A stretch of DNA of 64,000 bases, from contig JAMCXS010000022.1 of assembly GCA_023474345.1 (NCBI GenBank), forward strand, positions 62,001 to 126,000, in the 5' to 3' direction. Numbering within the stretch: the stretch's first letter is position 1; each line of letters opens with the position of its first letter. Under the pieces are notes generated by a model. The model ran no database searches, was not told the DNA's origin, and saw only the letters and a list, made by a program, of their open reading frames with translations. The stretch comes from Acidobacteriota bacterium (GTDB lineage: Bacteria; Acidobacteriota; Terriglobia; UBA7540). Below are positions 44,324-62,945 of this stretch, piece by piece. A program made the position numbers and the translations under genes.

Positions 44324-45256
44324 CTAGTTGAGTTTCCGGTGACGGTTCTTCATCATCCATTCCACGCCGGAGCGCCACCAGGCTGCAAGCGGGCCATGGA
44401 GCGAATTCAATGGCCACTCCGATCTCTTGGGCTTGATGGTGAGCGTTGAAATCAAGACATCTTCTCCAAAGATCGACGCTTCTTCGATGATGTTTCCGTC
44501 ACTCGAAATGATGCGGCTCTGGCCGTGCGAGCCCGTAAGGTCCGGATTAGCAGGGGCGTTGGCTGCCACCACGAATACCCCATTTTCCACCGCCCTGGCC
44601 ATCATCTGCGCGCGATACGGAATCATCTTGGAGGGTTCTTTTAGGCCGGACTCCGAGCTGATGTAGTAGACAATCCGCGCACCTGCAATGGCGGGCAGCC
44701 GGACCAGTTCTGGATAGCGTTCGTCGTGGCAGACGATGACAGTGGAAGGGACTCCCGCGAGATCAAAATAGCCAATGTGGTTGCCGGGCACATCCCATTT
44801 TTCCGCCAGGTAGATTTTCCCGTAGCGTTCAACGAGTTTTCCGCGCGAGTTGAAGACAACGGCGGTGTCGTATGTGTGGCCGTTAACCTTGTAAGCGCTT
44901 CCGAAGACCGCAGCAATCTTATGAGCGCGGCAGATTTCGCGCAACCGCTCTTCGGCGGCTGCAATCTCCTTTTCAGGGACCGGGAATGTCGGGGTCAGGT
45001 AATAGCCGGTAAGTGCGCACTCAGGGAAGACGGCCACCTGAACGCCCTCCTTGGCAAGCCAGCCCAGGAATTCGCTCATCCTTTTGCAGTTGTCGTTAAT
45101 GTCAAACGAAGAGCGAAATTGAACCGCCGCGACTTTCAGCTTTGTTGCCGGGGCTTGTCCCTGGGCAGACAAAACACCCAGGAATCCAGCGGCGATCAAT
45201 GCGAACGTCCTGCGTGTCCATAGGTGAACCCCCAACGCACCCATCAGAGAAATCAT
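44324..45256 (-). CDS. Carbon-nitrogen hydrolase (nitrilase superfamily), secreted/anchored
   Basis: KVAAVQFRSSFDINDNCKRMSEFL, VAVFPECALTGYYL, YGKIYLAEKW, VIVCHDERYPELVRLPA. Confidence 0.85.
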   Translation of the reverse strand: MISLMGALGVHLWTRRTFALIAAGFLGVLSAQGQAPATKLKVAAVQFRSSFDINDNCKRMSEFLGWLAKEGVQVAVFPECALTGYYLTPTFPVPEKEIAAAEERLREICRAHKIAAVFGSAYKVNGHTYDTAVVFNSRGKLVERYGKIYLAEKWDVPGNHIGYFDLAGVPSTVIVCHDERYPELVRLPAIAGARIVYYISSESGLKEPSKMIPYRAQMMARAVENGVFVVAANAPANPDLTGSHGQSRIISSDGNIIEEASIFGEDVLISTLTIKPKRSEWPLNSLHGPLAAWWRSGVEWMMKNRHRKLN

Positions 45257-45967: not shown

Positions 45968-47113
45968 ATGATTGACATCGAACGCCTTGCCATCGAATGC
46001 GGTCCGGTTCGTCTAAAAACCATTTCGATTGTGCGCGTGCATATCCCATTGGTTGAACCTTTTCGGATCAGCTCAGGCGCGGTAGACGTAAAAGACGCCT
46101 TGCTGGTGCGCGTCTCCGAGGGTGACGCCTTCGGATGGGGGGAAGCATCCGCAATGCCGGGTAGCTTCTATTCGGCGGAAACACCTGAAAGCTGCCAACA
46201 GGAACTCATCGATCACCTGGTTCCACACCTGTTAGGAAAAGAATTCGATTCCATCGTTGGTTTAAACGCCTGCCTGGATCAGCTTTCGTCTAATCGTTTT
46301 GCCCGAACAGCGATCGAAACGGCCTGCTGGGAACTGCTTGCGCGTCGGCAAGGCGTTTCGCTGCGAGAGTTATTTCGATTCCCCAATCGTCCAATTGCGT
46401 CCGGCCTTGCGGTGGGTCTCTATGCGACCGAAGCAGAATTGATTTCTGCCATTCATCGTTACTGGGCCGACGGGTACCAGCGGTTGAAGATCAAGATTAA
46501 GCGAGGGCAGGATATCTCACTGGTGCAAGCCGTGCGACACGAGTTTGGCGACATCCCTTTGTTTGTGGATGCCAACGCGGACTATAGCCGCGACGACTTC
46601 AAGGTCTTTCAAGCGCTCGACGACTACGGCCTGACCATGTTTGAGCAACCGCTGGCCAGGGAAGACTTGGATGGCGCTGCGCTACTTCAAAAACAAGTGC
46701 GAACACCGATCTGCCTGGATGAAGGGATTGAGACAGCAGACGACGCTCGGCGTGCGATCGCTTTAGGTAGTTGCCGCATTGTGAACATCAAACTTCAGCG
46801 AGTCGGCGGATTCCTGGAGGCCTTACGTATTAGCAGGGTTTGCGAGGACAAAGGCATTGGGCTCTGGGTCGGAACTATGCCGGAATTAGGCGTGGGTTCG
46901 GCGGCGGCGCTGGTTCTCGCTTGCCATCCGGGTTTTACCTTCCCTACCGACGTTGAGCCGAGCCGTCGGTGGTATGTTGACGACGTCATTGCACCGGAAA
47001 TTACCGTTTCGGGCGGCTGGATTTCTCTTCCAAAGGGGCCCGGGCTGGGTTACGAAGTTGACTCCAAAAAGCTCGCACGGTACGGCGTCCGGCGGTGGGA
47101 ATTCACAGCGTAA
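45968..47113 (+). CDS. Enolase-superfamily enzyme, OSBS/N-succinylamino acid racemase-like (MLE subgroup)
   Basis: KIKIKRG (KxK), VDANADYS, MFEQPL, CLDEGIE, NIKLQRVGG catalytic motifs. Confidence 0.85.
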   Translation: MIDIERLAIECGPVRLKTISIVRVHIPLVEPFRISSGAVDVKDALLVRVSEGDAFGWGEASAMPGSFYSAETPESCQQELIDHLVPHLLGKEFDSIVGLNACLDQLSSNRFARTAIETACWELLARRQGVSLRELFRFPNRPIASGLAVGLYATEAELISAIHRYWADGYQRLKIKIKRGQDISLVQAVRHEFGDIPLFVDANADYSRDDFKVFQALDDYGLTMFEQPLAREDLDGAALLQKQVRTPICLDEGIETADDARRAIALGSCRIVNIKLQRVGGFLEALRISRVCEDKGIGLWVGTMPELGVGSAAALVLACHPGFTFPTDVEPSRRWYVDDVIAPEITVSGGWISLPKGPGLGYEVDSKKLARYGVRRWEFTA

Positions 47114-47140
47114 GCTTCAAGTCCGGCGCCCGGGAATCTG

Positions 47141-48874
47141 TTGAAAGAATTGGAAATGACCAACGTACATCTAACCCTTCCCGACTACCTTGTTGTGGGC
47201 GGCTACTTTGTCATCGTGCTGTGGGTGGGCTTTTACTTCCGCAAGATGCTGGTCGGCGCGAAGGATTATTTTGCGGGCTCGCATCAGGTTCCTTGGTGGC
47301 TTGCTGGCATATCCCACTACATGTCGAGCTTTAGTGCTTTTTCTTTTATCGCTTATGCCCAGATGGGTTACATGTACGGATGGGTTGCGGTCACACTTTT
47401 CTGGGTAACTGTCCCCGCATGTATTCTAGGAGGTGCCGTTTTTGCGCAGCGTTGGCGGCGCGCGCGGATTATCACGCCCGTTCAGTTCCTTGAATCGCGT
47501 TTCAGTCCCTTCATTCGGCAACTCTTCGCTTGGGCGGGAATTCCGGTCAAGATTTTCGACGATGCCTTGAAGATTTTTGCCACAGGGCTTTTCTTGGCAC
47601 TGAGCGTTGGAATTAGTCTCCCCTGGGCCATAGGTTTTTGCGGGATCGTCATGGTCGCTTATACCTATCTCGGGGGATTGTGGGCGCTGATCGTGACCGA
47701 TTTTGTTCAGTTTTTGATGAAGGTCCTCGCAATGGTGCTGTTGCTTCCCCTTACCTTGTGGGCATTTGGGAGCTGGAGATCGGTCGTGCACGGCTATCCC
47801 GAGCATTTCTTCCGGCCCAGCGGCGGTCCCTACGGCTGGGTTTACATTATAGGCTTTGCGGTCCTGATCGCGATCAGTTATAACAGCACCTGGGCGTTGG
47901 CACAAAAATACTACTCTGTGCGGACTGAACGTGACGCCTCAAAAGCCGCTTATTGCGCGGCGGCACTTAATTTTCTGGGTGCCCCCCTGATGATCCTGCC
48001 GGCTCTGTTCGGCCGCAAGCTGCTTCCAAACCTGATAGCCCAGCATCAGACGGCAGACACCTACGTCTTGCTCGTCCTCAAATTTCTGCCGGTAGGCATG
48101 GTAGGGATTATCGTTGCGGCAATGTTCTCCGCAACCATGGCCACCGTCAGCGCGGATTTCAACGCGATCGCGAGCGTTTTAACCCAGGACGTGTACCATC
48201 GCCTCATCAACCCGGTTGCGAAGGAACGAGCCTTGGTGGCAATTGGCAGATTAAACACTCTGATTCTCGGGGTGCTCACCGTGGGTTTGAGCTTGTGGGT
48301 CGCCTTCAGCCATCAGCAATCACTGTTTCATCTGATGGTCACCGTTTTCGGACTCTTTATCGCTCCAACCTTCCTGCCGCTGCTGGCGGGTTTGACCATC
48401 AGGAGAATTACCTGGAAAGGCGCTCTTGCCGGATTCGTTGCCGGATTGTTTACCGGCATTTTCACACTGGCGCTCAAGACGTGGTACCTGCCGCACGTTT
48501 CAGGGATATCTCCCGAATGGACCAATTACACCTTTGAAGGTATTTCCATCCTGATCAACACAGCGGTCACTATTCTGGCAATGTGGGGTGGCAGCGTTTG
48601 GTTGCCTGCCAGCACTCAGGAGCGTGCCCAGATTGAGGATTTCTTCCAAGATCTGGGGAGGCCGATTACTTCCGAGGATGTTCCGGAAAAGCGAACGATT
48701 TCCGCCGGCCCAGCGATCGCCTGGTCCACGATCGGAGTTGCCGTACTGTTAATCGTAGCCGGGATCTGGTCGGATTTAGTGGTTGCCCGTTCGATCGACC
48801 TGGCTGTAGGCGTTATCTTGGGGACGATTGGCATTGTGATGCAAAGGAAGTCCAGAGCAAGCAGAAGTGATTAA
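47141..48874 (+). CDS. Sodium:solute symporter family transporter
   Basis: FAGSHQVPWWLAGISHYMSSFSAFSFIAYA; ~13 TM; AAMFSATMATVSADFNAIASVLTQDVY. Confidence 0.9.
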   Translation: MKELEMTNVHLTLPDYLVVGGYFVIVLWVGFYFRKMLVGAKDYFAGSHQVPWWLAGISHYMSSFSAFSFIAYAQMGYMYGWVAVTLFWVTVPACILGGAVFAQRWRRARIITPVQFLESRFSPFIRQLFAWAGIPVKIFDDALKIFATGLFLALSVGISLPWAIGFCGIVMVAYTYLGGLWALIVTDFVQFLMKVLAMVLLLPLTLWAFGSWRSVVHGYPEHFFRPSGGPYGWVYIIGFAVLIAISYNSTWALAQKYYSVRTERDASKAAYCAAALNFLGAPLMILPALFGRKLLPNLIAQHQTADTYVLLVLKFLPVGMVGIIVAAMFSATMATVSADFNAIASVLTQDVYHRLINPVAKERALVAIGRLNTLILGVLTVGLSLWVAFSHQQSLFHLMVTVFGLFIAPTFLPLLAGLTIRRITWKGALAGFVAGLFTGIFTLALKTWYLPHVSGISPEWTNYTFEGISILINTAVTILAMWGGSVWLPASTQERAQIEDFFQDLGRPITSEDVPEKRTISAGPAIAWSTIGVAVLLIVAGIWSDLVVARSIDLAVGVILGTIGIVMQRKSRASRSD

Positions 48875-48971
48875 TAATGTGCCGAATGGGCGCTGGGATG
48901 TTGAGGTACGCTGCCGTTTGGCGATAAAATCCAGCGAAAAAACACTACACGGCCAGCAGAAGGAGCCATTG

Positions 48972-50252
48972 ATGGTGCGAAGAATATCTTATTTGGTGGT
49001 TCTGCTGCTTGTTCAAGCCTCGCTATGCAGCGCGGCGCCGCCAGCGGATCATTGGGTATTGCCCAATTTCGCGCAACGGCTCTTCCTAACGGTCACCAAC
49101 CCGGGTAGCACACCGGTGGACGCGTTAGTGACTCTTCCTGTTGCTGCTGTCCAGCACGTTGCGTTGGGATTTCCCGGAAACCTCGCCATCGTGGTGGTGA
49201 AGAATCCACCGGGCAGCAAGTATTCGGTGACGGTTGTTCCCTCCCAGGCGGACGACCTCGACGGGGATGGCATGAAGGATGAGTTTGAGTTTCCAGTATC
49301 GCTCAACCCCCATGAAAGCAAGCAGGTGGATATTTATTTCTCAATGACGTTGCGCGGCAAAATTATCTACCCCCGAGCTGTCGCTGCTTCCCATAATTAT
49401 GGATACAATCACCAGACGGCAGCTCTGGAATCTGAGTTGATCGGCTATAGAACTTACGGCGGCTTTTCCCTCGATGTTGAGGGGCGTGTTGCCGGCCACC
49501 CGGGGCTCTATAACGATCTTAACGGTTACCTGGCGGCACACGGCAATTTTGCGGTGGGCAAAGATATCCTCCATGTCGGAGATACTCTGGGGCTAGGGGG
49601 TCTTTTCCTTGAACGTGATGGCACAATATATCGTCCGCCCATGAACGTTCCTGATTATGCGCACAAGCCCTCGCCTGTGAACGTTCCTCACTACCGGGTG
49701 CTGGCGGATGGGCCACTCCGCGCGACGATCGAGGCCACCCTTGACCACTGGCAAGTTGGCGAGGATGAAGTAGCACTTCGCGCGTGGTATAGCATCGATG
49801 CGGGTGAAGGATTCGTGCGTTGCCGGGTCCAGATCAGCCCCACAAAAATGCATGAAGGGCATGTATACCGCGTGGGGGTGGGCATACGCGGGTTGCCCTC
49901 AGAAAAATCAGGCAAGGAGTCCGGCCTGGTGATGCTGAGCGGTGAACAACAGCCGCAAACAGGCCGGCTGGCATCGGCACTATATTTCAATCCTGAGAGA
50001 GCTGCGCTTTCTCCCCCAATTGCAACTCCGGACGGCAACAACCAGGCTGCGCTTTTCGATAGGACGCTCAGCTGCGGCCGCGCCACCACTGAAGATTACG
50101 CTGTGGCGGCGGCCTGGCAGAAGAGCGGTATCCCGGACTTGCTTCACTACCTGGCGGGCATGAAAGGCCAGGTAAATTCCAAGGTTGTGGTGAGTAACGA
50201 GCGGCTGGAGAAAACCCCGCAGCCGGAACGGATCGAAGGAGAAGCATACTGA
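48972..50252 (+). CDS. Secreted DUF4861-like protein
   Basis: Start ATGGTGCGAAGAATA with AAGGAG SD; signal peptide; ALESELIGYRTYGGFSLDVEGR; EF-hand-like DLDGDGMKDEFEF. Confidence 0.65.
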   Translation: MVRRISYLVVLLLVQASLCSAAPPADHWVLPNFAQRLFLTVTNPGSTPVDALVTLPVAAVQHVALGFPGNLAIVVVKNPPGSKYSVTVVPSQADDLDGDGMKDEFEFPVSLNPHESKQVDIYFSMTLRGKIIYPRAVAASHNYGYNHQTAALESELIGYRTYGGFSLDVEGRVAGHPGLYNDLNGYLAAHGNFAVGKDILHVGDTLGLGGLFLERDGTIYRPPMNVPDYAHKPSPVNVPHYRVLADGPLRATIEATLDHWQVGEDEVALRAWYSIDAGEGFVRCRVQISPTKMHEGHVYRVGVGIRGLPSEKSGKESGLVMLSGEQQPQTGRLASALYFNPERAALSPPIATPDGNNQAALFDRTLSCGRATTEDYAVAAAWQKSGIPDLLHYLAGMKGQVNSKVVVSNERLEKTPQPERIEGEAY

Positions 50253-50289
50253 GCAGCCAGCCCGCTGACCGCTTGTTGCTTGAATAGTT

Positions 50290-51027
50290 ATGATAATTGA
50301 TGCACACGTTCACATTGGGAAATCGGCCCGCCTCCAGATCAGCGCCGATGGCGAATTTCTCGTACGCGTCGCAGACGACTTAGGCTTCGACAAGATCTGT
50401 TGCACCGATTTGACCGCGCTCTTCTACGACATGCACGAAGGAAACCGGTTGTTGTATGAGGAAATGCGGCGCTATCCCGATCGCATTGTCGGGTATGCGA
50501 GCCTGCATTCCACACGCTTCGAATCAGAGGCTCTGGAGAACCTGACCCGATGCTATGAGGTCTATGGCATGAAAGGCCTCAAAATTTACTCCACGCCCGA
50601 AGCGAGTATCGCGGAGCCGTGGACGATCCCTATCCTGGAAAAGTGCGTTGAATTTGACATGCCTGTTTTGGCCCATACGACTCCAGCCGAATGCGAATAC
50701 TTGATGACGCGCGTGCCGCAGTGCAAGGTTATGATGGCTCACGCCGGAGGACAACCTTTTGCTTTTGGTGACTGGAACCGGGCCATTATGATGGCGCAGC
50801 GGTTCGAGAATCTTTACCTGGACACCACCAGTTCGACTCTCGACGCGGGATTTGTTGAAAAGGCCGTTGCTGTCCTGGGGGCCGACAAAATCGTTTTTGG
50901 AACTGACACGCCGCTGCTGGATCCTTATATGCAGCGCACCAAGATTGCTGAAACACGAATCAGCAAAGAGGAGCGGGAGCTTATTATGGGTGGAAATATC
51001 CGGCGTCTGATGGGGATTGCGGCATGA
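50290..51027 (+). CDS. Amidohydrolase family (amidohydrolase_2-like) metal-dependent hydrolase
   Basis: MIIDAHVHIG, PVLAHTTP, MMAHAGGQ, IVFGTDTPL. Confidence 0.88.
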   Translation: MIIDAHVHIGKSARLQISADGEFLVRVADDLGFDKICCTDLTALFYDMHEGNRLLYEEMRRYPDRIVGYASLHSTRFESEALENLTRCYEVYGMKGLKIYSTPEASIAEPWTIPILEKCVEFDMPVLAHTTPAECEYLMTRVPQCKVMMAHAGGQPFAFGDWNRAIMMAQRFENLYLDTTSSTLDAGFVEKAVAVLGADKIVFGTDTPLLDPYMQRTKIAETRISKEERELIMGGNIRRLMGIAA

Positions 51028-51800
51028 TCGTGGACATTTGTGCCTATTTCGGCAAGTGGCCTTATTGGCCGATCGATGCTTGCACACCAGCGGCAGTGGT
51101 AGAAGAACTGGGCCATTGCGGTATTGATCGCGCGGCGGTTTTGTCGACGCGCGGGCTTTTTGTCGGTTGGGAAGAGGGCAACCTGGAAACCGAGGAGGCG
51201 GTTCGAGGTTTTCCGGGACGACTGGTGAGCTTTGCGTGCTTGGGTCCGCTGGAGCTGAGCCATACGCTTCAGGGACATATTTTTGATTTCGACAAGCTTT
51301 GCGCACGTGGTTTCCTGGGGGTGCGCCTTTACCCTCAGTACCATACTTACCACCCGCTCTATGAGCCGTTTGTCGACCAAATTTTGGAAGAGGCCGAAAT
51401 GCGTCAATGGCCGGTCCTGCTGCCGCTGCGAGTGATTATGAACTGGGGAATGCCGTCGCTCAGCTTGGATTGGATGGTGGCGATTGTCGAACGGCACCCT
51501 CGCACCCCTTGGATTTTGAGCGGCATCAATTATTTTCATGAATTGCGGGCTGCGGTTTCCCTGATGCGACGGTTTTCTACTGTGCACCTGGAAACTTCCT
51601 GCGTGCAGGGTTTCAATGCTATTGCGAAGCTGGTAGAGCAGTGCGGCAGCGATAATTTGCTTCTCGGTACTGGCCTGCCGCTACAGAACGGCAGCGCCAA
51701 TCTTCAGAAGATCCTGCGAGCGAATATTCCGGAACCCGCTCGTGAGAAAATTCTGGGTGGCAATGCCTGCCGGCTGTTGCGGCTCGAAGGAAGCCAGTAG
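51024..51800 (+). CDS. Amidohydrolase-fold protein with degenerate metal site
   Basis: Aligns to the upstream gene: MIVDICAYFG for MIIDAHVHIG, LLLGTGLPL for IVFGTDTPL; start overlaps upstream stop (ATGA). Confidence 0.75.
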   Translation: MIVDICAYFGKWPYWPIDACTPAAVVEELGHCGIDRAAVLSTRGLFVGWEEGNLETEEAVRGFPGRLVSFACLGPLELSHTLQGHIFDFDKLCARGFLGVRLYPQYHTYHPLYEPFVDQILEEAEMRQWPVLLPLRVIMNWGMPSLSLDWMVAIVERHPRTPWILSGINYFHELRAAVSLMRRFSTVHLETSCVQGFNAIAKLVEQCGSDNLLLGTGLPLQNGSANLQKILRANIPEPAREKILGGNACRLLRLEGSQ

Positions 51801-51817
51801 AACTTGAAGGAGGTTGA

Positions 51818-52756
51818 TTGCGTTTTCTGCGTTTCTTCACAGATGCGAATGAGGCCCATCTCGGGCTCAGATACCACGGGCGACTCATGGACGTGACGCT
51901 GGCGGCCCAGCGCCTGTGGGGGGAGGGGATTGTCAGTCCGGTAGCATTCATGACAGGCGAGCGAAAGGGTCCGGCTCAACTGGCCGCCTTGGTTGAAAGC
52001 GTTGCCGGTTCCGAAACGCTTCAAGTGGAGGTGTTGCGAGATGCGGATCACCTGCGCCTTGATGCGCCTTTGCGCGACATCCGGAAGCTCCTGGCCCTGG
52101 CGGGGAATTATAGCCAGCATATTGTTGAAAGCGGGTTTGAAGACGTCACCGAAGCAGCCCGGATCACACCACAGGTTTTTATGAAACCACCTTCCACGTG
52201 CATTACCGCTCCCGGGAAGCCAATCTATATCCGCACGTCAAATGTCTTTGTGGATTGGGAAATTGAGCTGGCGGTGATTATAGGCCGGAGAGGAAGAGAT
52301 ATCCCTTGTGAAAAGGCGATGGAATACGTTTTTGGTTATACGATTCTGAACGACATCAGCGAGCGCGATTTCAACAGCAGGATGGTTAATCGAAAGGTAC
52401 GCGAATTTGATCCCTTTTTTGACTGGTTGATGGGGAAGTGGTTCGACGGTTTCTGCCCGCTCGGCCCCGAAATTGTTTTCGCCGACGAGATTCAAGACCC
52501 GCATCGGCTTATCATAAGGCTTTGGGTGAACAATCAGTTGATGCAGGATGCAAACACCGCGCAAATGATTTTGGGTATCCCAGAAACAATCAACTATATT
52601 TCACAAGTGCTGACGCTCGAACCCGGTGACATCATCGCTATGGGAACGCCTGCCGGCGTAGGCAAGGGGCGCGGTATCCATTTGAAGCCGGGCGATATGA
52701 TGAAAGGGGAAATAGAGGGCATTGGCGTTCTTGAAACCCCTGTGGCTCTCGGCTAA
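51818..52756 (+). CDS. Fumarylacetoacetate hydrolase family protein
   Basis: LALAGNYSQH, VFMKPPSTCITAPGKPI, DWEIELAVIIGRRGRDI, GYTILNDISERDF, GDIIAMGTPAGVG. Confidence 0.92.
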   Translation: MRFLRFFTDANEAHLGLRYHGRLMDVTLAAQRLWGEGIVSPVAFMTGERKGPAQLAALVESVAGSETLQVEVLRDADHLRLDAPLRDIRKLLALAGNYSQHIVESGFEDVTEAARITPQVFMKPPSTCITAPGKPIYIRTSNVFVDWEIELAVIIGRRGRDIPCEKAMEYVFGYTILNDISERDFNSRMVNRKVREFDPFFDWLMGKWFDGFCPLGPEIVFADEIQDPHRLIIRLWVNNQLMQDANTAQMILGIPETINYISQVLTLEPGDIIAMGTPAGVGKGRGIHLKPGDMMKGEIEGIGVLETPVALG

Positions 52757-52846
52757 GGTCTGAAAGGAAGTTGATGCGAAGGGCTGAGTGGGCTGACTGA
52801 ATTTGCTTTCCCGGCTTGCTGGATCTCTCACACCAAGCGGAAGGAA

Positions 52847-53884
52847 GTGGTGATGGATAAGGTTAGGGTCGGAATCATCGGGGCTGGTTTTATGGGCAGG
52901 ACGAACGCTGAGACCGCGACCCGGTATCTCGACGGCGCCGAACTGGTGGCGATTGCAGGAGGAACACGCGCTCCGCAGCTTGCTCGTGAATACTGCGTGG
53001 CACATGATCCCACGGTGGCACACCTGCTGGAGCGCTCGGATATCGACGCAGTCCTTATCAGCACGCCGCATTCCGAACACGCTTCGCAGGCGATCCTGGC
53101 GGCCGAACATGGCAAACACATTCTTCTAGACAAGCCCATGGCCACCACACTGGGGGATTGCGATCAGATTCTCGCGGCGGTTGATCGTGCCGGTGTGAAC
53201 CTGATGATCATGTTTGGCCAGCGCTTTCGGATTTGTAACCGCGAGGCTCACCGCTTGATTCAGGAAGGCGCGATTGGCCGGGTGCGGATGATCCGGGAAC
53301 TGATTCTAAATTGTGGCGGTTTGGGGTCGCTCCCATCCTGGCAACGCCAGCCTGCCAATTCAGGGACGCTTCTCGCACACGGCGTTCACAACATTGACCG
53401 TATTCGTTGGTTTAGCGGGCAAGAAATATCGAGTGTGGCTGCGCAGGTGCAGTACGATGCCGCGAGTGGAAATGAGGTATCGGCGATGGCGGTCTTCGGT
53501 TTGAGTGATGGCGCTATGGCGACGCTTTGGGAGTCCTGGGCAATTCCCGAACCGGGTTTTCCTTACACTGCGTCCTCGTCGTGGGTTGTGGGTGAATCCG
53601 GCATTTTGGATGTTGACGCGTATGGAGAATTACGACTGGGCCGTGAGGGGAGATGGACCGTTGTTGCCAGACAGGACCCGATCGACTGGAAGGGAAAAGG
53701 AATGCTGGATCCCGTTCGTTTGGAAGCATATCGCTTGCAGCATCAGGAATTCATCAACAGCATTCGCGAAGGGCGCGAGCCCGCTGTATCCGGCAAGGAC
53801 GGCAGAGCTGCGGTCGAGGTTGCGCTGGCTGCTTACCGTTCTGCCGCCGACAGAGTGACCGTCAGGCTTCCCATGGGAGGATAG
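52847..53884 (+). CDS. Gfo/Idh/MocA family oxidoreductase
   Basis: VRVGIIGAGFMGRTNAETATR, VLISTPHSEHASQAILAAEHGKHILLDKPMATT. Confidence 0.92.
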   Translation: MVMDKVRVGIIGAGFMGRTNAETATRYLDGAELVAIAGGTRAPQLAREYCVAHDPTVAHLLERSDIDAVLISTPHSEHASQAILAAEHGKHILLDKPMATTLGDCDQILAAVDRAGVNLMIMFGQRFRICNREAHRLIQEGAIGRVRMIRELILNCGGLGSLPSWQRQPANSGTLLAHGVHNIDRIRWFSGQEISSVAAQVQYDAASGNEVSAMAVFGLSDGAMATLWESWAIPEPGFPYTASSSWVVGESGILDVDAYGELRLGREGRWTVVARQDPIDWKGKGMLDPVRLEAYRLQHQEFINSIREGREPAVSGKDGRAAVEVALAAYRSAADRVTVRLPMGG

Positions 53885-53889
53885 AGCAC

Positions 53890-55164
53890 GTGAGTGATCA
53901 ACTGGCATTACTGGGAGGGCCGAAAGCGATTCGGGAACCTCTGCCGACATTTCTGGAATACGCCGGACGGACGTTCGGGCGTGAAGAGGAGGAACTTGTT
54001 TTGCGGGCTCTGAGGTCTGGGTGCCTCAGTCGAAACGGGGGTGTAATGGTCGCGGCACTCGAGCGGGAATTTGCCGCCCGATTGGGCGCCGCCAGAGCGG
54101 TGGCGTGCTCAAGCGGTACTGCGGCTGTGCACTTGGCTGTCGCGGCACTCAATCCGGAGCCCGGAGATGAGTTTATCGTCCCTCCAATCACAGATATGGG
54201 CACGATCCTGCCGGTCCTCTGGCAGAATTGCGTCCCTGTCTTCGCTGATGTCGATCCGGAGACGCTCACAATCGACCCTGACGATGTTGAACGAAACATT
54301 ACTGATCGCACGCGGGCGATTATTGCCGTTCACCTGGCCGGACAGCCGTGTCAAATGGCGCAACTTCGAACTTTGGCTGACCGCTACCACATTACCCTCA
54401 TTGAAGATTGCGCTCAGGCCTATTGGGCGAAGTGCGACGGAAAACTTGTCGGCACGCTGGGGGATGCAGCATGCTTCAGCCTGCAACAGAGCAAGCACAT
54501 CACGTGCGGGGAAGGTGGGCTGATGGTGACGTCGCGGCCTGAACTTGCCGATCGCGCTGGGCTGTTTGCGGATAAAGCCTGGCCACGTGACAGCAAGGAT
54601 TTGGGAGGTGCCCGATTCCTGTTTCTGGCTCAGAACTACCGGATGAGCGAACTTCAGGGGGCAGTGGCTCTGGCTCAGCTCCCGAAAGTTGCAGAAGTGG
54701 CGCAGCGCCGCCGTCAAAGAGCTTTGCTTTTGACTGAGATGCTTGCGAATGTACCCGGCGTTCGTCCGCCGACGGTGCCGGTAAACACGGATCCCTCCTA
54801 CTGGCTCTACATGTTGCACATCGACGAAGGAGCGGCGGCAGTTTCGACGGCGCAGTTCGGAGAAGCCTTGCTTGCCGAGGGTGTCCCGGCGTGGGTGCAG
54901 TACATCGTGAAACCGCTCTATCTAGCTAGCCTGATTACCGAGCTGCGGACTTATGGTAATTCGCAATATCCTTTTCATCCGTACGGCCGGCAAGAATACA
55001 AGGCCGGGCTGTGTCCCCAAGCCGAAAGGGCCCTGAACCACGTGATTGCAATTCACTGGAACGAGAACTATAGCGAAAGCCAGGTTGAGCAAATTCGCAC
55101 GGCCATTGTGAAGGTGGCTCGTCATTTTGCGTCCTCCGCGACTGCACGAAGACCTGCCAAATAA
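53890..55164 (+). CDS. DegT/DnrJ/EryC1/StrS family aminotransferase
   Basis: GTG start at 53890; AVACSSGTAAVHLAVAAL, IIAVHLAGQPCQM, LIEDCAQAYWAK, FSLQQSKHITCGEGGLMVT (PLP Lys). Confidence 0.9.
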   Translation: MSDQLALLGGPKAIREPLPTFLEYAGRTFGREEEELVLRALRSGCLSRNGGVMVAALEREFAARLGAARAVACSSGTAAVHLAVAALNPEPGDEFIVPPITDMGTILPVLWQNCVPVFADVDPETLTIDPDDVERNITDRTRAIIAVHLAGQPCQMAQLRTLADRYHITLIEDCAQAYWAKCDGKLVGTLGDAACFSLQQSKHITCGEGGLMVTSRPELADRAGLFADKAWPRDSKDLGGARFLFLAQNYRMSELQGAVALAQLPKVAEVAQRRRQRALLLTEMLANVPGVRPPTVPVNTDPSYWLYMLHIDEGAAAVSTAQFGEALLAEGVPAWVQYIVKPLYLASLITELRTYGNSQYPFHPYGRQEYKAGLCPQAERALNHVIAIHWNENYSESQVEQIRTAIVKVARHFASSATARRPAK

Positions 55165-55179
55165 GAGCGGGAGATTTCC

Positions 55180-56994
55180 ATGGACCGAATCAGGGCTTCG
55201 GTATGTTTTTGTGTATTGATCGTGATTCCTGCGGTCGCCGCTCCGCCCCGGGCGCGCCTTCCGTGGTACATGCGCGCAACCGCTATGACACCGGATGGGC
55301 GGCTGACCTTTCTCGATAAGCCGTGGTGGCCGAGAGCCAAAGCCCTTGCCGAGGGGCAGAGCTTCACGCTCGATCTGAATCATGACGGCCGTCCCGACAC
55401 CGTGGTCGAACGTAAGGATGACAATATCATTGAGGCAATCGACGACAGCGGAAGGGCTAAGAATATCCTTAACAAGGTTGATACCGCGTATCTGGTGAGC
55501 TATCACCGGACCGGCCTGGTCGACCGCATGGTTGCTTATATTGACAACAATCACGACGGCAAAGCTGACGAGATGGAGATCCGGTATTACAAAGACGGAT
55601 ATCTCCGTTTTGGATGGTTTGGCGAGAACTACGATAACGACGGTGCGCAAATCTTTTCTTTGAAGAACTGGCAGTATGATGGCAATGGCTTTGCCAGTAA
55701 GTTTCGCGGTAACACCATAATCTATCTCAATAAATACAATTTTGAGACCCACAAATGGGAACCCCTTTCTGAGTGCCCTTTTGTTTTTTTCAACCCGAGC
55801 CACGACGGTTTTGGGGAGATCGTTGCCCGGTTTGCCGTCGCGCCTTTAAGCAGTAACACCGGAAGCGATCTCGATTACGCGAACAACTACAAGTACATGT
55901 GGTCGGCGAAGGCGACGCCTCTCGACAAGCTCGGTACCGTCAATGTCCGACTCAGCTACAGCATCGATCCACCGCCGCGCAAGCAAGCCTTTAGCAGGCC
56001 TCATTACAACTTTGGCTTCACGATGGTCGGGTCCCAACCGTACAACTACCCGCGCATGTCTTACACCAATCCTCGTCGCCGGCCGCCTCAAACCGTAATC
56101 CGCATTCCGTGGAACGATGCCCTGCAAGTGGCCTTGGATTATCCGGCCGCAAAGACAGGCTTTACCTGGGACGAAGGGCGCAGTGTTCACCGATGGGAAG
56201 GTCAATTCTGGATTTACGAACGGCGGCTGTTATATAACACCGGTGGTCCCACCTACCGCTGGAATATGCGGCGCGAGTACTCTTCCAATCCAGCGACCCG
56301 TCGGCAGCTTTACTACTCGGCGGTGGACAAGCGTTACCATCTGTTTGGCGCAAAGGAAGGCTGGCTGGAGGTAGGGCATCTGGTCGATGACAAGAAGGAT
56401 ATGGAGATTCGTTACTTTGACACCAACGGCGATGGTTACTTCGACAAGTGGGAGGTCTTCCTGGGCGGCGATCCGGTGCCTGTGCAAATCACGCGCGTAT
56501 CGGATCCAAGAACACGGATGGTTCCTCTCAAGCGCAGTTTCCTGATAAAAGATTATAACCGGCGAGTTTTGCCCAAGGCCATCGCTGAGGACAAAAAATT
56601 GATTGCTGAGATGCGGAAATTCGTCAGTATTTCATTGGTGTCGAAGTATGAAGCAGCCGCGCAAAGTGCCACGATGGCGGAGCGCCGGCGCTATTGCCTT
56701 GACGTCGCTCGCGAGTTGTACTTTATCGGCGTGCGGGACCTACTCTACCGGCGTGACGCTTCCAGTGACTATCCGGCCCTGGCTCAAGCCGCACCGCGGC
56801 CCCTGCTCGAGCGCGGCCCCATTGGGGGCCGCTATACGCTGGGTGACACGCTTGCCTACTGGAAACTCGCCCGTGAGATTGAGGCTTTTGTGAATGATTA
56901 CGGTTCTGGACATCTCCGTCACGCGTATCTCGATCTCAGAAAGATTTCCTTACCAGATCACCCTGTTACGCTCAAATCGAGTGCGCTCCACTGA
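55180..56994 (+). CDS. Large secreted protein of unknown function with EF-hand-like Ca-binding loops
   Basis: Signal peptide; DLNHDGRPDTVVE, DNNHDGKADEMEI, DTNGDGYFDKWEV. Confidence 0.75.
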   Translation: MDRIRASVCFCVLIVIPAVAAPPRARLPWYMRATAMTPDGRLTFLDKPWWPRAKALAEGQSFTLDLNHDGRPDTVVERKDDNIIEAIDDSGRAKNILNKVDTAYLVSYHRTGLVDRMVAYIDNNHDGKADEMEIRYYKDGYLRFGWFGENYDNDGAQIFSLKNWQYDGNGFASKFRGNTIIYLNKYNFETHKWEPLSECPFVFFNPSHDGFGEIVARFAVAPLSSNTGSDLDYANNYKYMWSAKATPLDKLGTVNVRLSYSIDPPPRKQAFSRPHYNFGFTMVGSQPYNYPRMSYTNPRRRPPQTVIRIPWNDALQVALDYPAAKTGFTWDEGRSVHRWEGQFWIYERRLLYNTGGPTYRWNMRREYSSNPATRRQLYYSAVDKRYHLFGAKEGWLEVGHLVDDKKDMEIRYFDTNGDGYFDKWEVFLGGDPVPVQITRVSDPRTRMVPLKRSFLIKDYNRRVLPKAIAEDKKLIAEMRKFVSISLVSKYEAAAQSATMAERRRYCLDVARELYFIGVRDLLYRRDASSDYPALAQAAPRPLLERGPIGGRYTLGDTLAYWKLAREIEAFVNDYGSGHLRHAYLDLRKISLPDHPVTLKSSALH

Positions 56995-57093: not shown

Positions 57094-58149
57094 CTATTGC
57101 TTAAGCCAGCGGTCAAGAAACTCGTACGCTTGCTCACGGGCGGCAGGGGGAAAGCTGTGCGAGGCATCCGGAAAAACCGCGACGAGGTTATTCTGAGCGT
57201 GAAAGAGGCTGTAAATATGGCGCGCGGAATTCAGGCAATCTCTAACGCCTGAGACGTCAAAAATAAAGTCATGAAGCGGCGCGTTGACGAACAGGGGTCT
57301 GGGAGCCAGGGCCGCCAGAACATCTGAGAAATCGAAAGGCATACGGGCAGGATCATTCCCGAACATCGTGGCAATGCGCGGCATATAGACCTTCTGGCTC
57401 CAGGGAGCAAGTTGGCCCCCGTTCTCCTCGGCATACTTCGACGCCGCATACTTCGCAAAGCTCGTGAAACCACAACTGCTTACCAACGCTCGAACCCGCT
57501 GGTCGAACACTCCAAGAAAAAGGGTATTGTGTCCGCCGAGCGAGTGTCCGATGCATCCGATGCGATCTCTTGCGACTTCCGGCAGCGATTCGAGGAGATC
57601 AATAGCCCGCATGTTGTTGTAGATCCCTAACATCGTGTCGCTGGCATATCCGTGAGTGTAAGGGTCAAACTTGTAGCCGCCAAAATCATAACGCCCGCAA
57701 CCGGGGTAATCAGGAGCCAGCGTGACGTAACCACGTTTTGCTAATTCAAGCGCGTAATGGAGGTTGGGATTGCCTCTGATGCCCGCTGGCTCAGCAGCAC
57801 CGAAGGGAGTGGTCTGATGGAGGCAGAGGACCGCAGCCACGCGCCCGCTCGCACTTTTCGGAATAAGAAGGTAGGCGGGCACGTGATCGCCCTTTTCACT
57901 TCGATAGGTGAGTTTGGTACGAGTAACCGCACCGAGATCAGATTCTTCCAATTTTCGGATATCCAGAGTGACATGCGGTCTTCGAGGCAGCGGCCCCATC
58001 ACCTCTTCCATGTTCCGAAGGATTTCCCGGCGGTATCGAGCCCATTGTTGGAGGCTCTTGACGCTGCGAAGTGACTCCCTTCTTCCGTTATGCAAGAGCA
58101 GAGAAGCAAGCGCCAATCCGAGAAACTCTCGACGGTTGACGTTGTTCAT
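57094..58149 (-). CDS. Alpha/beta hydrolase (acetyl xylan esterase/dienelactone hydrolase-like), secreted
   Basis: VPAYLLIPKSASGRVAAVLCLHQT, DYPGCGRYDFGG, IGCIGHSLGGHNTLFLG nucleophile elbow. Confidence 0.82.
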   Translation of the reverse strand: MNNVNRREFLGLALASLLLHNGRRESLRSVKSLQQWARYRREILRNMEEVMGPLPRRPHVTLDIRKLEESDLGAVTRTKLTYRSEKGDHVPAYLLIPKSASGRVAAVLCLHQTTPFGAAEPAGIRGNPNLHYALELAKRGYVTLAPDYPGCGRYDFGGYKFDPYTHGYASDTMLGIYNNMRAIDLLESLPEVARDRIGCIGHSLGGHNTLFLGVFDQRVRALVSSCGFTSFAKYAASKYAEENGGQLAPWSQKVYMPRIATMFGNDPARMPFDFSDVLAALAPRPLFVNAPLHDFIFDVSGVRDCLNSARHIYSLFHAQNNLVAVFPDASHSFPPAAREQAYEFLDRWLKQ

Positions 58150-58199: not shown

Positions 58200-60248
58200 T
58201 CACTCTCCAAAACTAACGGGCGGGCTGGGAAACTTCGGATGGTAAGCCCACACGTGTGTGTGGCTACCGAAATAGATTGTTCCATCGGCCGCGATGGTGA
58301 GCCCGCAGGTTGCTTTGTCAGCCGTCTCCGGGAAGAAATGGACCGTTCGGCGCGCCGGCAAAATATGCGCCAACTCGCCATTGAGAATCCCCCACAGGCT
58401 GCCATCCTTAGCTGCCCGCAGGCTTTCCAGGGGTACGGATTGCCGGCGGTCAAAATGATAGATTGCTGTAAGCGTTCGGGCCTGTGAATCATAATCCATC
58501 AACTCATCGCCGGCCACAAAATAGGCGTGTCCATTAACGGCTGCAATTCCTCCCAGGCCATGTGCAATTGTGAGCACGTGGTCAAAAACAATTTTGTGAG
58601 TGCTCGGATCCCAAACAAAAAAATGGCTGTTTGTAGCGACCGGTTTGCTGCCTCCGCCGCCGCTCGGGTCAGCGCCGCAATAAACATATTTTGCATCAGT
58701 ACCCACGGCACTGATTTCCTCATCAGGAACGATATTCCGGTAAACCTGCAGTGTCTCCGTGACCGGGTCGAACACCGATAGGGCCCCACCAATCAATCCA
58801 TAATCGGGTTGAGTGCCAATGTACATTTTATTGTTGGGACCCAGGTGGATTCCGCCCACCGGGCGATACTGGTCTTCGGGGATATGAAGGATTGTGCGAG
58901 GGTTGGAATCAGGACTCTCGCCCTGATTCCACGGCCGTGAGGGATCAAACACCACCAGGGTGGCCTCGACGTAAGATATCGTATACAGCTTTCCTTCATA
59001 AGGGATGCCGTAATAGATCTCTCCACCTTCGTTCATCACCTGGTCGTATGAGATGAGCTGGTGACTTTGAGGATTATAAGAAAACAGTGTCTGGCCCAAG
59101 CTCGGCCCCCCATAGATGAGGCCGTTGGGAAAGGAGCGCACCCATAGGACTTCCTGCCCGAGACCGTCGACGGGAATACGGCGGCGCACCGTTGTGTGGT
59201 CTTTCAAGTTGACGTAAATATAGGATTGAACGCGCATGCCGAGCAGGTTCCCGCCGCGAGTAAGATACCAACGGCCATTGGCGACGGCGCCCGGCGACTT
59301 GCAATAAATGGACTGCTTCCCGTTGCGCAGATCAAGCTTTTCAATATTTCCGCGATATACCTGGTAGATCAGGTGATCGGCATCCAGCAAATTAATGCCC
59401 GAAGCGCCGGGAAGTTTCTCAGTACGAAGAAGCTTAAGATTTTTTGTCTGGAAGATCAGGATTGTATCCCCTGCCAGTTCGACCACATAGTGAGGGCTGA
59501 CGAGCGGCTTCGCGGTCACACCGGGAAGCCGATATCGCTCGGGAGTTAGTGTGCGAAACTCGTGGGTTGACGGGTTGTAAGCGATTATCCGCCCGGACCG
59601 GGTTCCGACCCCACATAGAACTGTTCCTTCAGGGGTAACCGCGATGTTGCGCAGATAGTTTTCATCGGCTATTTTGCCAAGGTCCGTGACTTTCCCGGTG
59701 TGGGGGTCGTAACAGACAAGATGACAACCAGGATATGTGCCGTAGTAAATATCGCCGTCCGGAGCCTGGGCAAGATCGCAAATGATGAATTCCTTTTTCC
59801 GGAATGCCGCGGAAGCCTGAGGCAACGGAATCCACTTTTCTGTACGAGGGTCGAAGCTGAGCAACTCACCGCCGTTGTATGACCCGAGATAGATATTCCC
59901 GTCTTGCCCCTGGATGATTCCCCAGGACCCGATGCCTACCGGAAGCGTCCATGATTTAGCGAGGTTGCCCCGGTAATCCAGCCGGATTAGCTGGCCACGG
60001 CTGGCGGAGTTGAACGACGTTATGTAAAACACGTCGGTCTTGAGCTTTGGGTCGTACACATTCAACGCGTTAAAGGTCCAGAGATTTGTCGCCACGGGCC
60101 CTATTTCAGTGAAGTCTGGGGCCGCAGCGCGCACCTGAAGCGTTTTCCTGCGGATGAAACTACTTTCCTGCGAATACATGGTGCTTGCAGCCGTCAGGAT
60201 AACAGTCAATAGGATTGTGACGACCAGACGCCAAGAGTGACTCCGCAT
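58200..60248 (-). CDS. Secreted beta-propeller protein (paralogue A)
   Basis: Repeated DGNIYLGSYNGGELLSFDPRTEKW, DGDIYYGTYPGCHLVCYDPHTGKVTDLG blades. Confidence 0.8.
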   Translation of the reverse strand: MRSHSWRLVVTILLTVILTAASTMYSQESSFIRRKTLQVRAAAPDFTEIGPVATNLWTFNALNVYDPKLKTDVFYITSFNSASRGQLIRLDYRGNLAKSWTLPVGIGSWGIIQGQDGNIYLGSYNGGELLSFDPRTEKWIPLPQASAAFRKKEFIICDLAQAPDGDIYYGTYPGCHLVCYDPHTGKVTDLGKIADENYLRNIAVTPEGTVLCGVGTRSGRIIAYNPSTHEFRTLTPERYRLPGVTAKPLVSPHYVVELAGDTILIFQTKNLKLLRTEKLPGASGINLLDADHLIYQVYRGNIEKLDLRNGKQSIYCKSPGAVANGRWYLTRGGNLLGMRVQSYIYVNLKDHTTVRRRIPVDGLGQEVLWVRSFPNGLIYGGPSLGQTLFSYNPQSHQLISYDQVMNEGGEIYYGIPYEGKLYTISYVEATLVVFDPSRPWNQGESPDSNPRTILHIPEDQYRPVGGIHLGPNNKMYIGTQPDYGLIGGALSVFDPVTETLQVYRNIVPDEEISAVGTDAKYVYCGADPSGGGGSKPVATNSHFFVWDPSTHKIVFDHVLTIAHGLGGIAAVNGHAYFVAGDELMDYDSQARTLTAIYHFDRRQSVPLESLRAAKDGSLWGILNGELAHILPARRTVHFFPETADKATCGLTIAADGTIYFGSHTHVWAYHPKFPSPPVSFGE

Positions 60249-60368: not shown

Positions 60369-62525
60369 CTACTGGCCGAAGGAGGCCGGCGGGCTGGGAG
60401 ACTTCGGGTGATGGATCCAAATGTCCGTGTCACTGCCGAAGTAAATCGTTCCATCTGCTCCGATGGCCAGTCCGCTGGTTGCTCCCCCCATCGTCTCAGG
60501 AAAGAACTTTACCTTTCGGGCAGAGGGATTGATGTGGGCCAACTCGTTTCCGAGAATCCCCCAAAGCGTCCCGTCCTTTGCTGCCTTGAGGCTTTCCAAA
60601 GGGACGTGACGTGGCCGGTCAAAATGGTTGATTGCTCTCAGGGTCCGTCGACTGGAATTGTAGTCCATCAAGCGGTTGCCGGTGACAAAATACGCATGTT
60701 TGTGAACGACTGCGATTGCTCCAAAGCCGGCAGAGGTCGCGAAGGCATGGTCAAAGACAATCTTTTGAGTTTGCGGATCCCACACGAAGAAGTGGGCTTG
60801 GCGCTCCACGCGTTTGCTGCCGCCACCCCCACCGGGATCAGCTCCGCAATAGGCGTATCGGTCCCCTGTTCCAACTGAGCTGATTTCTTCATTGGGAATA
60901 AGGTTGCGGTGTGCTACCAGCTTTTCCGTTTCAGGATCGAAAACCGACAGCGCTCCTCCGAGTAATCCATAACCGGGTTGCGTGCCGATGTACATTTTTC
61001 CGCTGGGGCCGAGATGAATGCCACCGACGGGCCGATACTGATCTTCAGGAATGTACAGAATAGCCCGGGGATTCGAGGACGAGGCGTCGCCGGCACTCCA
61101 CGGCCTTGAAGGATCGAAAGCCGCCAGGCCTGCTTCAGCGTACGACATGGTGTAAAGTTTCTGCCGGTAGGGGATCCCATAGTATATTTCGCCCGTGCGA
61201 TCGATCACCTGATCGTAAGAAGTAAGCACGTTCGTCTTGGGGTTGAAAGAGAAGAATGTCTGTCCCAATCCAGGCCCGCCATAAATTAACCCGTTCGGGA
61301 ACGAATTCAGCCACAGCACCTGCTCGCCCAGCCCCTCCACGGGAATCATGCGATGAGTGACTTCTTTCGTCTTAAGGTTCAGATAAACATACGATTGCAC
61401 GAGCAGCCCCAGAATATTGCCTGACTGATCAAAATACCATCGATTGTTTGCCGCAGTTCCAGGTGAGGCGAACAGAACTTTGCGGTTGCCGTTGGTCAAG
61501 TTAAGCGACATCAGTTTCAGTTCGTTATCCTGGTAGAGAACATGGTTGTCATCGATAAGAGTGAAAATCGACTGGTTGCCTGAACCGTTGTTCTTGGCTG
61601 GCACATCGTAAACGTGGAGAAGTCTTAGCGTTTTCGGATCGTACACTAGTACCCGGCTTCCCGGCCGCTGCTGCCCTTCAATCACATAACGGTCGCTGGC
61701 CAGAGGCTTGGGGAAAACGCCCGGGGTCTGGTATTTTGGGGGAGTCACGGTCCAGAAGCGGCGTGTCCGGGGATTATAAGCGATCATCTGCCCGAGGCTC
61801 GGACCGACGCCGCAAAGCACGATGCCTTCACGGGTGACTGCTACCCACCTTACATATTGTTCGTTGGCAACCTTGCCGAAATCCGTCACGGTCTTTGCAT
61901 GGGGATCATAGCGAACTAAGTGAGCACCCGGATACGTCCCGTAGTAAATGTCGCCATTGGGTGCTTGGACAAGGTCGCAGATGATATATTCGCGCTTGCG
62001 GAATGCTAAAGAGGCCTGCGGAACTTTGACCCACTGTTTGGTGCGCGGGTTAAAGCACATCAACTCACCTTGATTGTACGATCCCATATAGATGTTGCCG
62101 TCCTGCCCTTTGATGATGCCCCAGGAACCGATGCCTGCCGGCATCGGCCAAGCTTGTGCGCGGTCGTGAAGATAATCCAACTCGATCAACTGGCCTGTGC
62201 GCGCCGGCCTGCCCTCTGTGACGAAGAACTGGCCCCCGCCGGACTGGTTGAATGAAGTAACGTAAAACACTTGCGACTTAAGCTTAGGGTCGTACATGTT
62301 CAGCGCGTTGAACGTCCACAGATTGATGTTCATGGGACCGACACTCGTAAAGTTTGGGGCCGCGGACCGAGGCTGCAGGGTCTTGGTGCGCACGAAAGAC
62401 TCCTTCTTTGCTGCGGCAGCGGGAGAGGGCGCCTCAGACTGCTTTGAACATGCCGCGAAGGCTAATGAAAGCAGGAAAAAAGCAGCAAGGTAAAACCTGC
62501 TGCTTGAGAAATCCTTAGCTGTCAT
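60369..62525 (-). CDS. Beta-propeller lipoprotein (paralogue B)
   Basis: Start MTAKDFSSSRFYLAAFFLLSLAFAACSKQ at 62525 with GGAGGT SD; extensive similarity to 58200..60248. Confidence 0.82.
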   Translation of the reverse strand: MTAKDFSSSRFYLAAFFLLSLAFAACSKQSEAPSPAAAAKKESFVRTKTLQPRSAAPNFTSVGPMNINLWTFNALNMYDPKLKSQVFYVTSFNQSGGGQFFVTEGRPARTGQLIELDYLHDRAQAWPMPAGIGSWGIIKGQDGNIYMGSYNQGELMCFNPRTKQWVKVPQASLAFRKREYIICDLVQAPNGDIYYGTYPGAHLVRYDPHAKTVTDFGKVANEQYVRWVAVTREGIVLCGVGPSLGQMIAYNPRTRRFWTVTPPKYQTPGVFPKPLASDRYVIEGQQRPGSRVLVYDPKTLRLLHVYDVPAKNNGSGNQSIFTLIDDNHVLYQDNELKLMSLNLTNGNRKVLFASPGTAANNRWYFDQSGNILGLLVQSYVYLNLKTKEVTHRMIPVEGLGEQVLWLNSFPNGLIYGGPGLGQTFFSFNPKTNVLTSYDQVIDRTGEIYYGIPYRQKLYTMSYAEAGLAAFDPSRPWSAGDASSSNPRAILYIPEDQYRPVGGIHLGPSGKMYIGTQPGYGLLGGALSVFDPETEKLVAHRNLIPNEEISSVGTGDRYAYCGADPGGGGGSKRVERQAHFFVWDPQTQKIVFDHAFATSAGFGAIAVVHKHAYFVTGNRLMDYNSSRRTLRAINHFDRPRHVPLESLKAAKDGTLWGILGNELAHINPSARKVKFFPETMGGATSGLAIGADGTIYFGSDTDIWIHHPKSPSPPASFGQ

Positions 62526-62945
62526 GATGTTTACCTCCCACCTGTTTTCGCTTTGGCAAGCTGTCGTTCGTATATGGCAGCGTTTTGAGCCACCGATTAG
62601 GCGGCAACGGTTGTGGCGACCCTTCAACTTTTGTGCAACCAATTCATTCCATGAAATGAATTGCTTCCTTCCTGTAGGGCCCCCAGTATTTTCAACACCG
62701 ACCGAAATGTATTCCCCGTCTGAGTCGCGTACGTTCTTCGCTTCAGAACATTGCATGCCTGAATGTGCAATTTACTTCATGGCGTAACTTCATATACTGT
62801 TTTGGAAGGCATAGTCAAGACATACTTCACAAAATATGGAGAAGTTTTACTCCTTAGCAAGAGCGCATAAGATGGAACCCACGCCCAAAGAGGTGTGGCC
62901 GTCGCTTGTTGAATTGAGGAGTCTGTATCCGGGAGGGTTGTCTTT

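Follow-up and report, generated by a model that had tools for sequence, protein, structure and literature searches.

Gene content and layout of the locus

The window, meaning the whole stretch of DNA analysed here (64,000 nucleotides), is part of contig 25 of an Acidobacteriota genome of 2.0 Mb that is 75% complete. A sequence-only reading had described nine co-directional, tightly packed plus-strand genes at positions 45968-56994, and this was confirmed: all nine ORFs were found at the positions given there, with intergenic distances running from overlap up to 90 bases. The genes are as follows.

45968..47113, plus strand: gene 1, enolase-superfamily protein, MLE subgroup, N-succinylamino-acid racemase/o-succinylbenzoate synthase (NSAR/OSBS) type by TIGR01928, PDB relatives and motifs
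47141..48874 (start probably 47156), plus strand: SSS-family Na+/solute symporter, predicted uptake (PF00474, 131 bits)
48867..50252 (start probably about 48972, with signal peptide), plus strand: gene 3, predicted exported DUF4861 protein (PF16153)
50290..51027, plus strand: AH1, Amidohydro_2 protein, predicted catalytic subunit (PF04909, full metal site)
51024..51800, plus strand: AH2, metal-free Amidohydro_2 paralogue, or pseudo-amidohydrolase (PF04909, no metal ligand)
51818..52756, plus strand: predicted FAH-family C-C hydrolase (PF01557, 210 bits)
52847..53884 (start probably 52853), plus strand: predicted Gfo/Idh/MocA NAD(P)-dependent dehydrogenase, Gfo (PF01408)
53890..55164, plus strand: DegT/DnrJ/EryC1/StrS PLP aminotransferase, DegT (PF01041, 291 bits; open frame 53653-55164, real start about 53890)
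55180..56994, plus strand: gene 9, exported protein without a family, with a signal-peptide-like start and no match in Pfam, NCBIfam or the PDB

The family names proposed in the sequence-only reading agreed with Pfam for eight genes (MR_MLE, SSF, DUF4861, Amidohydro_2 twice, FAA_hydrolase, GFO_IDH_MocA and DegT), the ninth matching none. Signal-peptide-like N-termini were recognised by sequence in genes 3 and 9. The mechanically called starts of the SSS, DUF4861 and Gfo genes look too early when compared with a syntenic operon of the same family (locus L174). The reading frames of AH1 and AH2 share a 4-base overlap, the AH2 start overlapping the AH1 stop. Promoter- and terminator-like matches in the operon showed no excess over shuffled sequence, so that spacing and synteny are what argue for a single transcript.

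Upstream of the operon lies a divergent carbon-nitrogen hydrolase gene (44324-45256) with a signal-peptide-like start, which is predicted to encode an exported amidase. Directly after the operon a minus-strand gene (57094-58149) encodes an alpha/beta hydrolase with weak glucuronyl-esterase similarity, and two further minus-strand genes (58200-60248 and 60369-62756) encode exported, propeller-like paralogous proteins.

Conservation in other genomes

A profile made from a four-sequence AH1 alignment was scanned over 84,980 species, and the nine window proteins were then mapped onto the loci. Co-occurrence in related genomes, which the sequence-only reading had put forward as a check, was found, with gene order shared by L174 and by four other Acidobacteriota loci (L088-L091). 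At L174 eight of the nine genes stand in the same order (SSS-DUF4861-AH1-AH2-FAH-Gfo-DegT-gene 9) at 72-88% identity. Downstream of that operon, too, lie homologs of the two minus-strand genes that follow the operon in the window, and the propeller-like paralogues may therefore belong to the same functional neighbourhood. Six to eight of the nine genes, at 47-73% identity, are present in the other four loci, arranged DUF4861-AH1-AH2-FAH-Gfo-DegT-IclR-enolase-SSS (L088), DUF4861-AH1-AH2-Gfo-DegT-gene 9 with FAH just upstream (L089), DUF4861-IclR-AH1-AH2-Gfo-DegT-gene 9-SSS (L090) and DUF4861-AH1-AH2-FAH-Gfo-DegT (L091); L087 holds DUF4861-AH1-AH2 only. The enolase gene is accessory to the operon, the FAH gene is frequent and the remaining genes are core. 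Since orthologous clusters occur in other genomes, the nine-gene arrangement is not a matter of chance, and the earlier view of a co-inherited, catabolic-looking operon with uptake and exported proteins is supported. Among relatives the operon is rare; an AH1 match at E<=1e-20 was obtained in 8 of 61, and identity of at least 73% in only two besides the window.

A related core of the operon was found in Phycisphaerae, where a class-III aminotransferase occupies the place of DegT (L093, L094, L096, L098 and L102). The order there is gene 9-SSS-Gfo-class III aminotransferase-[gene 9-like and DUF4861 fusion]-AH1-AH2, gene 9 and SSS not both being in view at every locus. Because an unrelated PLP enzyme stands in the DegT position, transamination is argued to be part of the operon's function; judged from these sequences, it seems to be the reaction rather than the fold that is conserved. 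SSS orthologs share 88% identity in L174, 61-66% in L088 and L090 and 39-45% in the Phycisphaerae operons. Gfo orthologs were found at 49-83% in ten related clusters, and those of gene 9 at 57-74% in L089, L090 and L174 and at 37-42% adjoining SSS in Phycisphaerae.

The amidohydrolase pair

All AH1 metal ligands (H6, H8, H129, H151 and D206) and K98 are present, and the ligands are invariant in 18 of 18 orthologs. The two genes had earlier been taken as two hydrolases, and it had been missed that the window copy of AH2 keeps none of the five ligands; they therefore form a catalytic/metal-free pair. A lactonase role for both was rejected. In the tandem-partner alignment one member has HxH, H, H and D and the other does not. 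Eight residues of AH2 (D4, W12, N53, R101, N169, Y170, E190 and K229) are invariant in 17 of 17 orthologs.

A profile scan was run over 99 loci, and of 90 selected loci 85 contain a complete-site amidohydrolase. An adjacent same-strand metal-free partner, keeping at most one of five ligands, was present in 70 of the 85, a proportion that is not an unbiased frequency because the loci were gathered with AH1-type queries. The unpaired complete-site loci are mostly the most distant matches, and at one of them (L075) the neighbour of the complete-site protein keeps three ligands. The metal-free gene comes first in 49 pairs and the catalytic gene in 21. By record title, the carriers are Acidobacteriota, Planctomycetota, Chloroflexota, Latescibacterota, Poribacteria, Gemmatimonadota, Aminicenantes, Hydrogenedentota, Firmicutes and one Bathyarchaeota archaeon. 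When the 70 pairs were placed in a tree, catalytic and metal-free types separated without error (support 0.956); after seven columns round each ligand were dropped as a control, 1 of 140 sequences was misplaced (support 0.912). Pairwise distances of the two types were correlated at r = 0.954 over the 70 pairs, a value uncorrected for species relatedness.

The simplest reading of these sequences would be one old duplication, loss of the metal site in one copy and then long co-inheritance, and we infer a physical AH1-AH2 complex. It is unlikely, though deserving of some weight, that AH2 instead acts on its own, through a novel activity that needs no metal, and is merely co-transcribed with AH1: the polar residues invariant in AH2 (R101, N169, Y170, E190 and K229) could make an active site, but neighbouring genes at 70 of 85 loci, occurrence in either order and divergence that is correlated are expected of an interacting pair, even if contact is not proven thereby. 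Dead subunits occur in pairs elsewhere among amidohydrolases too, an example from another branch being pseudo-dihydroorotase with ATCase.

An aminotransferase (DegT or class III) lies within 7 kb of only 21 of the 70 pairs, so the pair serves other pathways too. A limited search of open-access papers found no described amidohydrolase pair of this kind. AH1/AH2 may thus be a widespread, undescribed two-subunit amidohydrolase class with an ancient metal-free paralogue as obligate partner, the window operon being one of several undescribed transaminase-dependent catabolic routes around such pairs, a proposal that we hold at slightly less than even odds. If true, a lone Amidohydro_2 protein from this branch, assayed without its partner, would seem inactive or wrongly annotated.

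Enzymes of the operon

Gene 1 had been regarded as a sugar-acid dehydratase and core member, an assignment that was abandoned. Its TIGR01928 score is above the cutoff (260.3 against 200.65 bits), its closest solved structures are N-acylamino acid racemase/OSBS proteins, and the residues K-x-K, D, E, D and K, with a second-shell R (NIKLQRVGG), are present by sequence. On these grounds gene 1 is assigned to the NSAR/OSBS type. Within the operon the gene is found in the window and in L088 only (a 60% ortholog); the syntenic operon at L174, the nearest relative, lacks it, which marks it as accessory. The neighbourhood search suggested for the enolase in the sequence-only reading returned relatives, at about 40% identity in 165 of 297 genomes of the phylum, but no neighbours in common within the short loci.

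The FAH protein carries the ExE metal motif (E148, E150) and a His101/Glu104 pair as in acylpyruvate-type hydrolases, for which the His/Glu and ExE residues of C-C hydrolases were taken from PMC6336799. The H-x-x-E pair also occurs in L174, L088, L091 and L085, and the best NCBIfam model, NF053535 (2,4-didehydro-3-deoxy-L-rhamnonate hydrolase), scores below its cutoff. At family level, the protein is of a predicted 2,4-diketo-3-deoxy-acid-hydrolase type with the His/Glu pair.

The resemblance to a diketo-deoxyrhamnonate hydrolase, and the joint presence of a dehydrogenase, a possible lactonase, an enolase-superfamily member and FAH, would also suit an ordinary sugar acid degraded by the known non-phosphorylative route III (fuconate/rhamnonate type), with DegT as an unrelated passenger. 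This we consider quite improbable: the enolase belongs to the wrong subgroup and can be dispensed with, Pfam found no 2-keto-3-deoxy-acid 4-dehydrogenase (SDR or MDR) among the nine genes, and the aminotransferase is retained and even swapped for an unrelated fold, which is unlike a passenger.

The best NCBIfam model for Gfo is the IolG-like inositol 2-dehydrogenase TIGR04380, at 149.5 bits (below the cutoff of 355). By sequence, the Gfo clade has A or G at the position four residues ahead of the catalytic His, where, by comparison with IolG, Asp is usual, and an invariant His three residues ahead of it. DegT retains the PLP lysine K202 in the motif SKHITCGEGG, and its nearest named solved relatives are 3-, 4- and 8-aminotransferases of sugars and inososes.

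The inositol-dehydrogenase model, several DegT matches to 2-deoxy-scyllo-inosose or scyllo-inositol aminotransferases, and weak matches to LigY-kind C-C hydrolases, which Amidohydro_2 includes, could together point to aminocyclitol or inosose catabolism. Gfo would then be an inositol-like dehydrogenase, DegT would convert inosamine to inosose, and AH1/AH2 would cleave a ring C-C bond of the oxidised cyclitol. We regard this as improbable, as Gfo falls far under the IolG cutoff, Pfam scans of part of the neighbours gave no IolE, IolD or IolB partners, and the PIG-L, M20, KDPG-aldolase and heparinase-like neighbours described below suit amino sugars or uronates better.

Exported proteins

Searches of literature and structures found no paper and no solved structure for DUF4861. 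Its model (mean pLDDT 71) gave GH38 alpha-mannosidases as best Foldseek matches, with E 2e-7 and a low TM of 0.38, and its core is predicted to be a super-beta-sandwich reminiscent of carbohydrate-active enzymes or glycoside hydrolase accessory domains. Gene 9 has D-rich, calcium-loop-like motifs, a beta-rich core and a helical C-terminus; its model is confident (pLDDT 81), yet gave no convincing fold match in the PDB. The two exported families are linked by the fusion of DUF4861 to a gene-9-like domain in Phycisphaerae.

Neighbouring genes and substrate class

PIG-L deacetylase genes were found within 7 kb of 9 of the 70 AH pairs, two being checked with Pfam. One such locus (L119) reads Gfo-DegT-AH2-like-AH1-like-PIG-L, with glutamate dehydrogenase two genes on. 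A locus (L099) of the cultured bacterium Longilinea arvoryzae KOME-1 combines an M20 deacylase, a KDPG-type aldolase, a PfkB kinase, a class-III aminotransferase, an Opp-type importer, AH1, AH2, Gfo and an RraA-like aldolase, and an HpcH aldolase lies near the pair at L097. IclR regulators occur in L088, L089, L090, L067 and L085. Two paralogous operons, L179 and L085, encode heparinase II/III-like proteins; L179, from the same family, reads IclR-DegT-heparinase-like-AH2-like-AH1-like-Gfo-SSS.

At L085 (3920-12455), DegT, the AH pair and FAH were read from translations in line with succinate dehydrogenase and fumarase genes, which hints at a C4 dicarboxylate product in that version. Just right of the window on contig 25, a second set on the minus strand (L067, 172-4231) comprises DegT, a metal-free AH and a catalytic AH with Gfo- and IclR-like fragments; by sequence it is probably a degenerate paralogous operon.

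Taken as a whole, the neighbours described in this section speak for the degradation of an N-acylated amino sugar or amino-sugar acid rather than for cyclitols or synthesis. Of the substrate suggested in the sequence-only reading, an amino-substituted or oxidised cyclic polyol or sugar derivative, the amino-substituted, sugar-like part is thus probable from the neighbours in related loci and the cyclitol part is disfavoured.

Gfo/Idh and DegT enzymes form biosynthetic pairs, as in the NtdA/NtdC, PseC and ArnB families. Those DegT homologs whose function is known act in biosynthesis, and the operon could on that account supply a secreted product with an amino sugar or aminocyclitol, the exported proteins being part of an envelope structure. 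This is very improbable and was rejected, for Pfam identified no glycosyltransferase, NDP-sugar, phosphatase or cyclase gene among the nine, the SSS symporter, FAH and the IclR-type regulators are marks of catabolism, and the L119 and L099 contexts are catabolic.

Proposed pathway

The operon may serve to capture, import and degrade an amino sugar or amino-sugar acid, AH1 being catalytic, AH2 its partner and C-C cleavage the last step. A probability of about 0.45 is given to this tentative reading. We infer the substrate class and the chemistry of all steps, and the order in which they are set out is a guess. An external source would be bound or cut by the exported DUF4861 and gene-9 proteins and the product imported by the SSS symporter. 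A ring carbon would be oxidised by the Gfo/Idh/MocA enzyme, and the oxidised ring (a lactone or equivalent) hydrolysed by AH1/AH2, with AH1 catalytic and AH2 its metal-free partner subunit. The PLP aminotransferase (DegT or class III) would pass the amine on to an accepting 2-oxo acid and so leave a keto group exposed. FAH, or an aldolase in other lineages, would then cleave a 2,4-dioxo acid or 2-oxo-3-deoxy acid to pyruvate and a small acid. The enolase of the window and L088 may add an epimerisation or dehydration of an alpha-amino or acyl-amino acid intermediate.

Some points speak against breakdown. DegT enzymes are familiar mainly from biosynthetic pathways, and the reactions of a Gfo/DegT pair could proceed towards synthesis. 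The nine-gene window operon itself encodes no deacylase. The lack of the usual Asp in the Gfo clade also counts against the proposed reading, as does the small share of AH pairs with an aminotransferase nearby. FAH was not found in L090 or Phycisphaerae within the stretches seen, and as the enolase is also missing from most clusters, the lower pathway is not fixed.

The proposed route would, if true, be a transamination-based one for the use of amino-sugar carbon and nitrogen in soil and sediment. The locus offers a handle on 'unknown' genes of Acidobacteriota, Planctomycetota, Chloroflexota and Latescibacteria, namely DUF4861, the gene-9 family and a large PF04909 branch.

Comparison with known systems

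The sequence-only reading knew no named pathway with the full gene combination, and none was found described in a limited search of open-access literature. The enzyme families are known; their arrangement and the AH pairing appear to be new.

Gene 1 shares family score, catalytic lysines and metal ligands with the NSAR/OSBS family (TIGR01928; Amycolatopsis N-acylamino-acid racemase 1sja), but sits with a symporter, amidohydrolases and an aminotransferase, and no menaquinone gene is among the nine. The full HxH, H, H, D set of the PF04909 amidohydrolases (ACMSD, gamma-resorcylate decarboxylase, LigY) is present in AH1, but its similarity to them is remote (best PDB E 1.7e-7, over partial length), and unlike them it travels with a metal-free paralogue. 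Adjacent Gfo/Idh and DegT genes recall the NtdC/NtdA and scyllo-inosose aminotransferase modules, whereas the uptake, FAH, amidohydrolase and IclR context of the window operon points to breakdown, not synthesis.

With non-phosphorylative route III (L-fuconate/L-rhamnonate; PMC6336799, PMC13406643) the operon shares a dehydrogenase, a predicted ring-opening hydrolase, an enolase-superfamily protein and FAH with the His/Glu pair; by Pfam family, Gfo/Idh and AH1 would be candidates for the aldose 1-dehydrogenase and lactonase. It differs in having a PLP aminotransferase instead of the 4-dehydrogenase, a dispensable, NSAR/OSBS-like enolase, and a catalytic/metal-free amidohydrolase pair.
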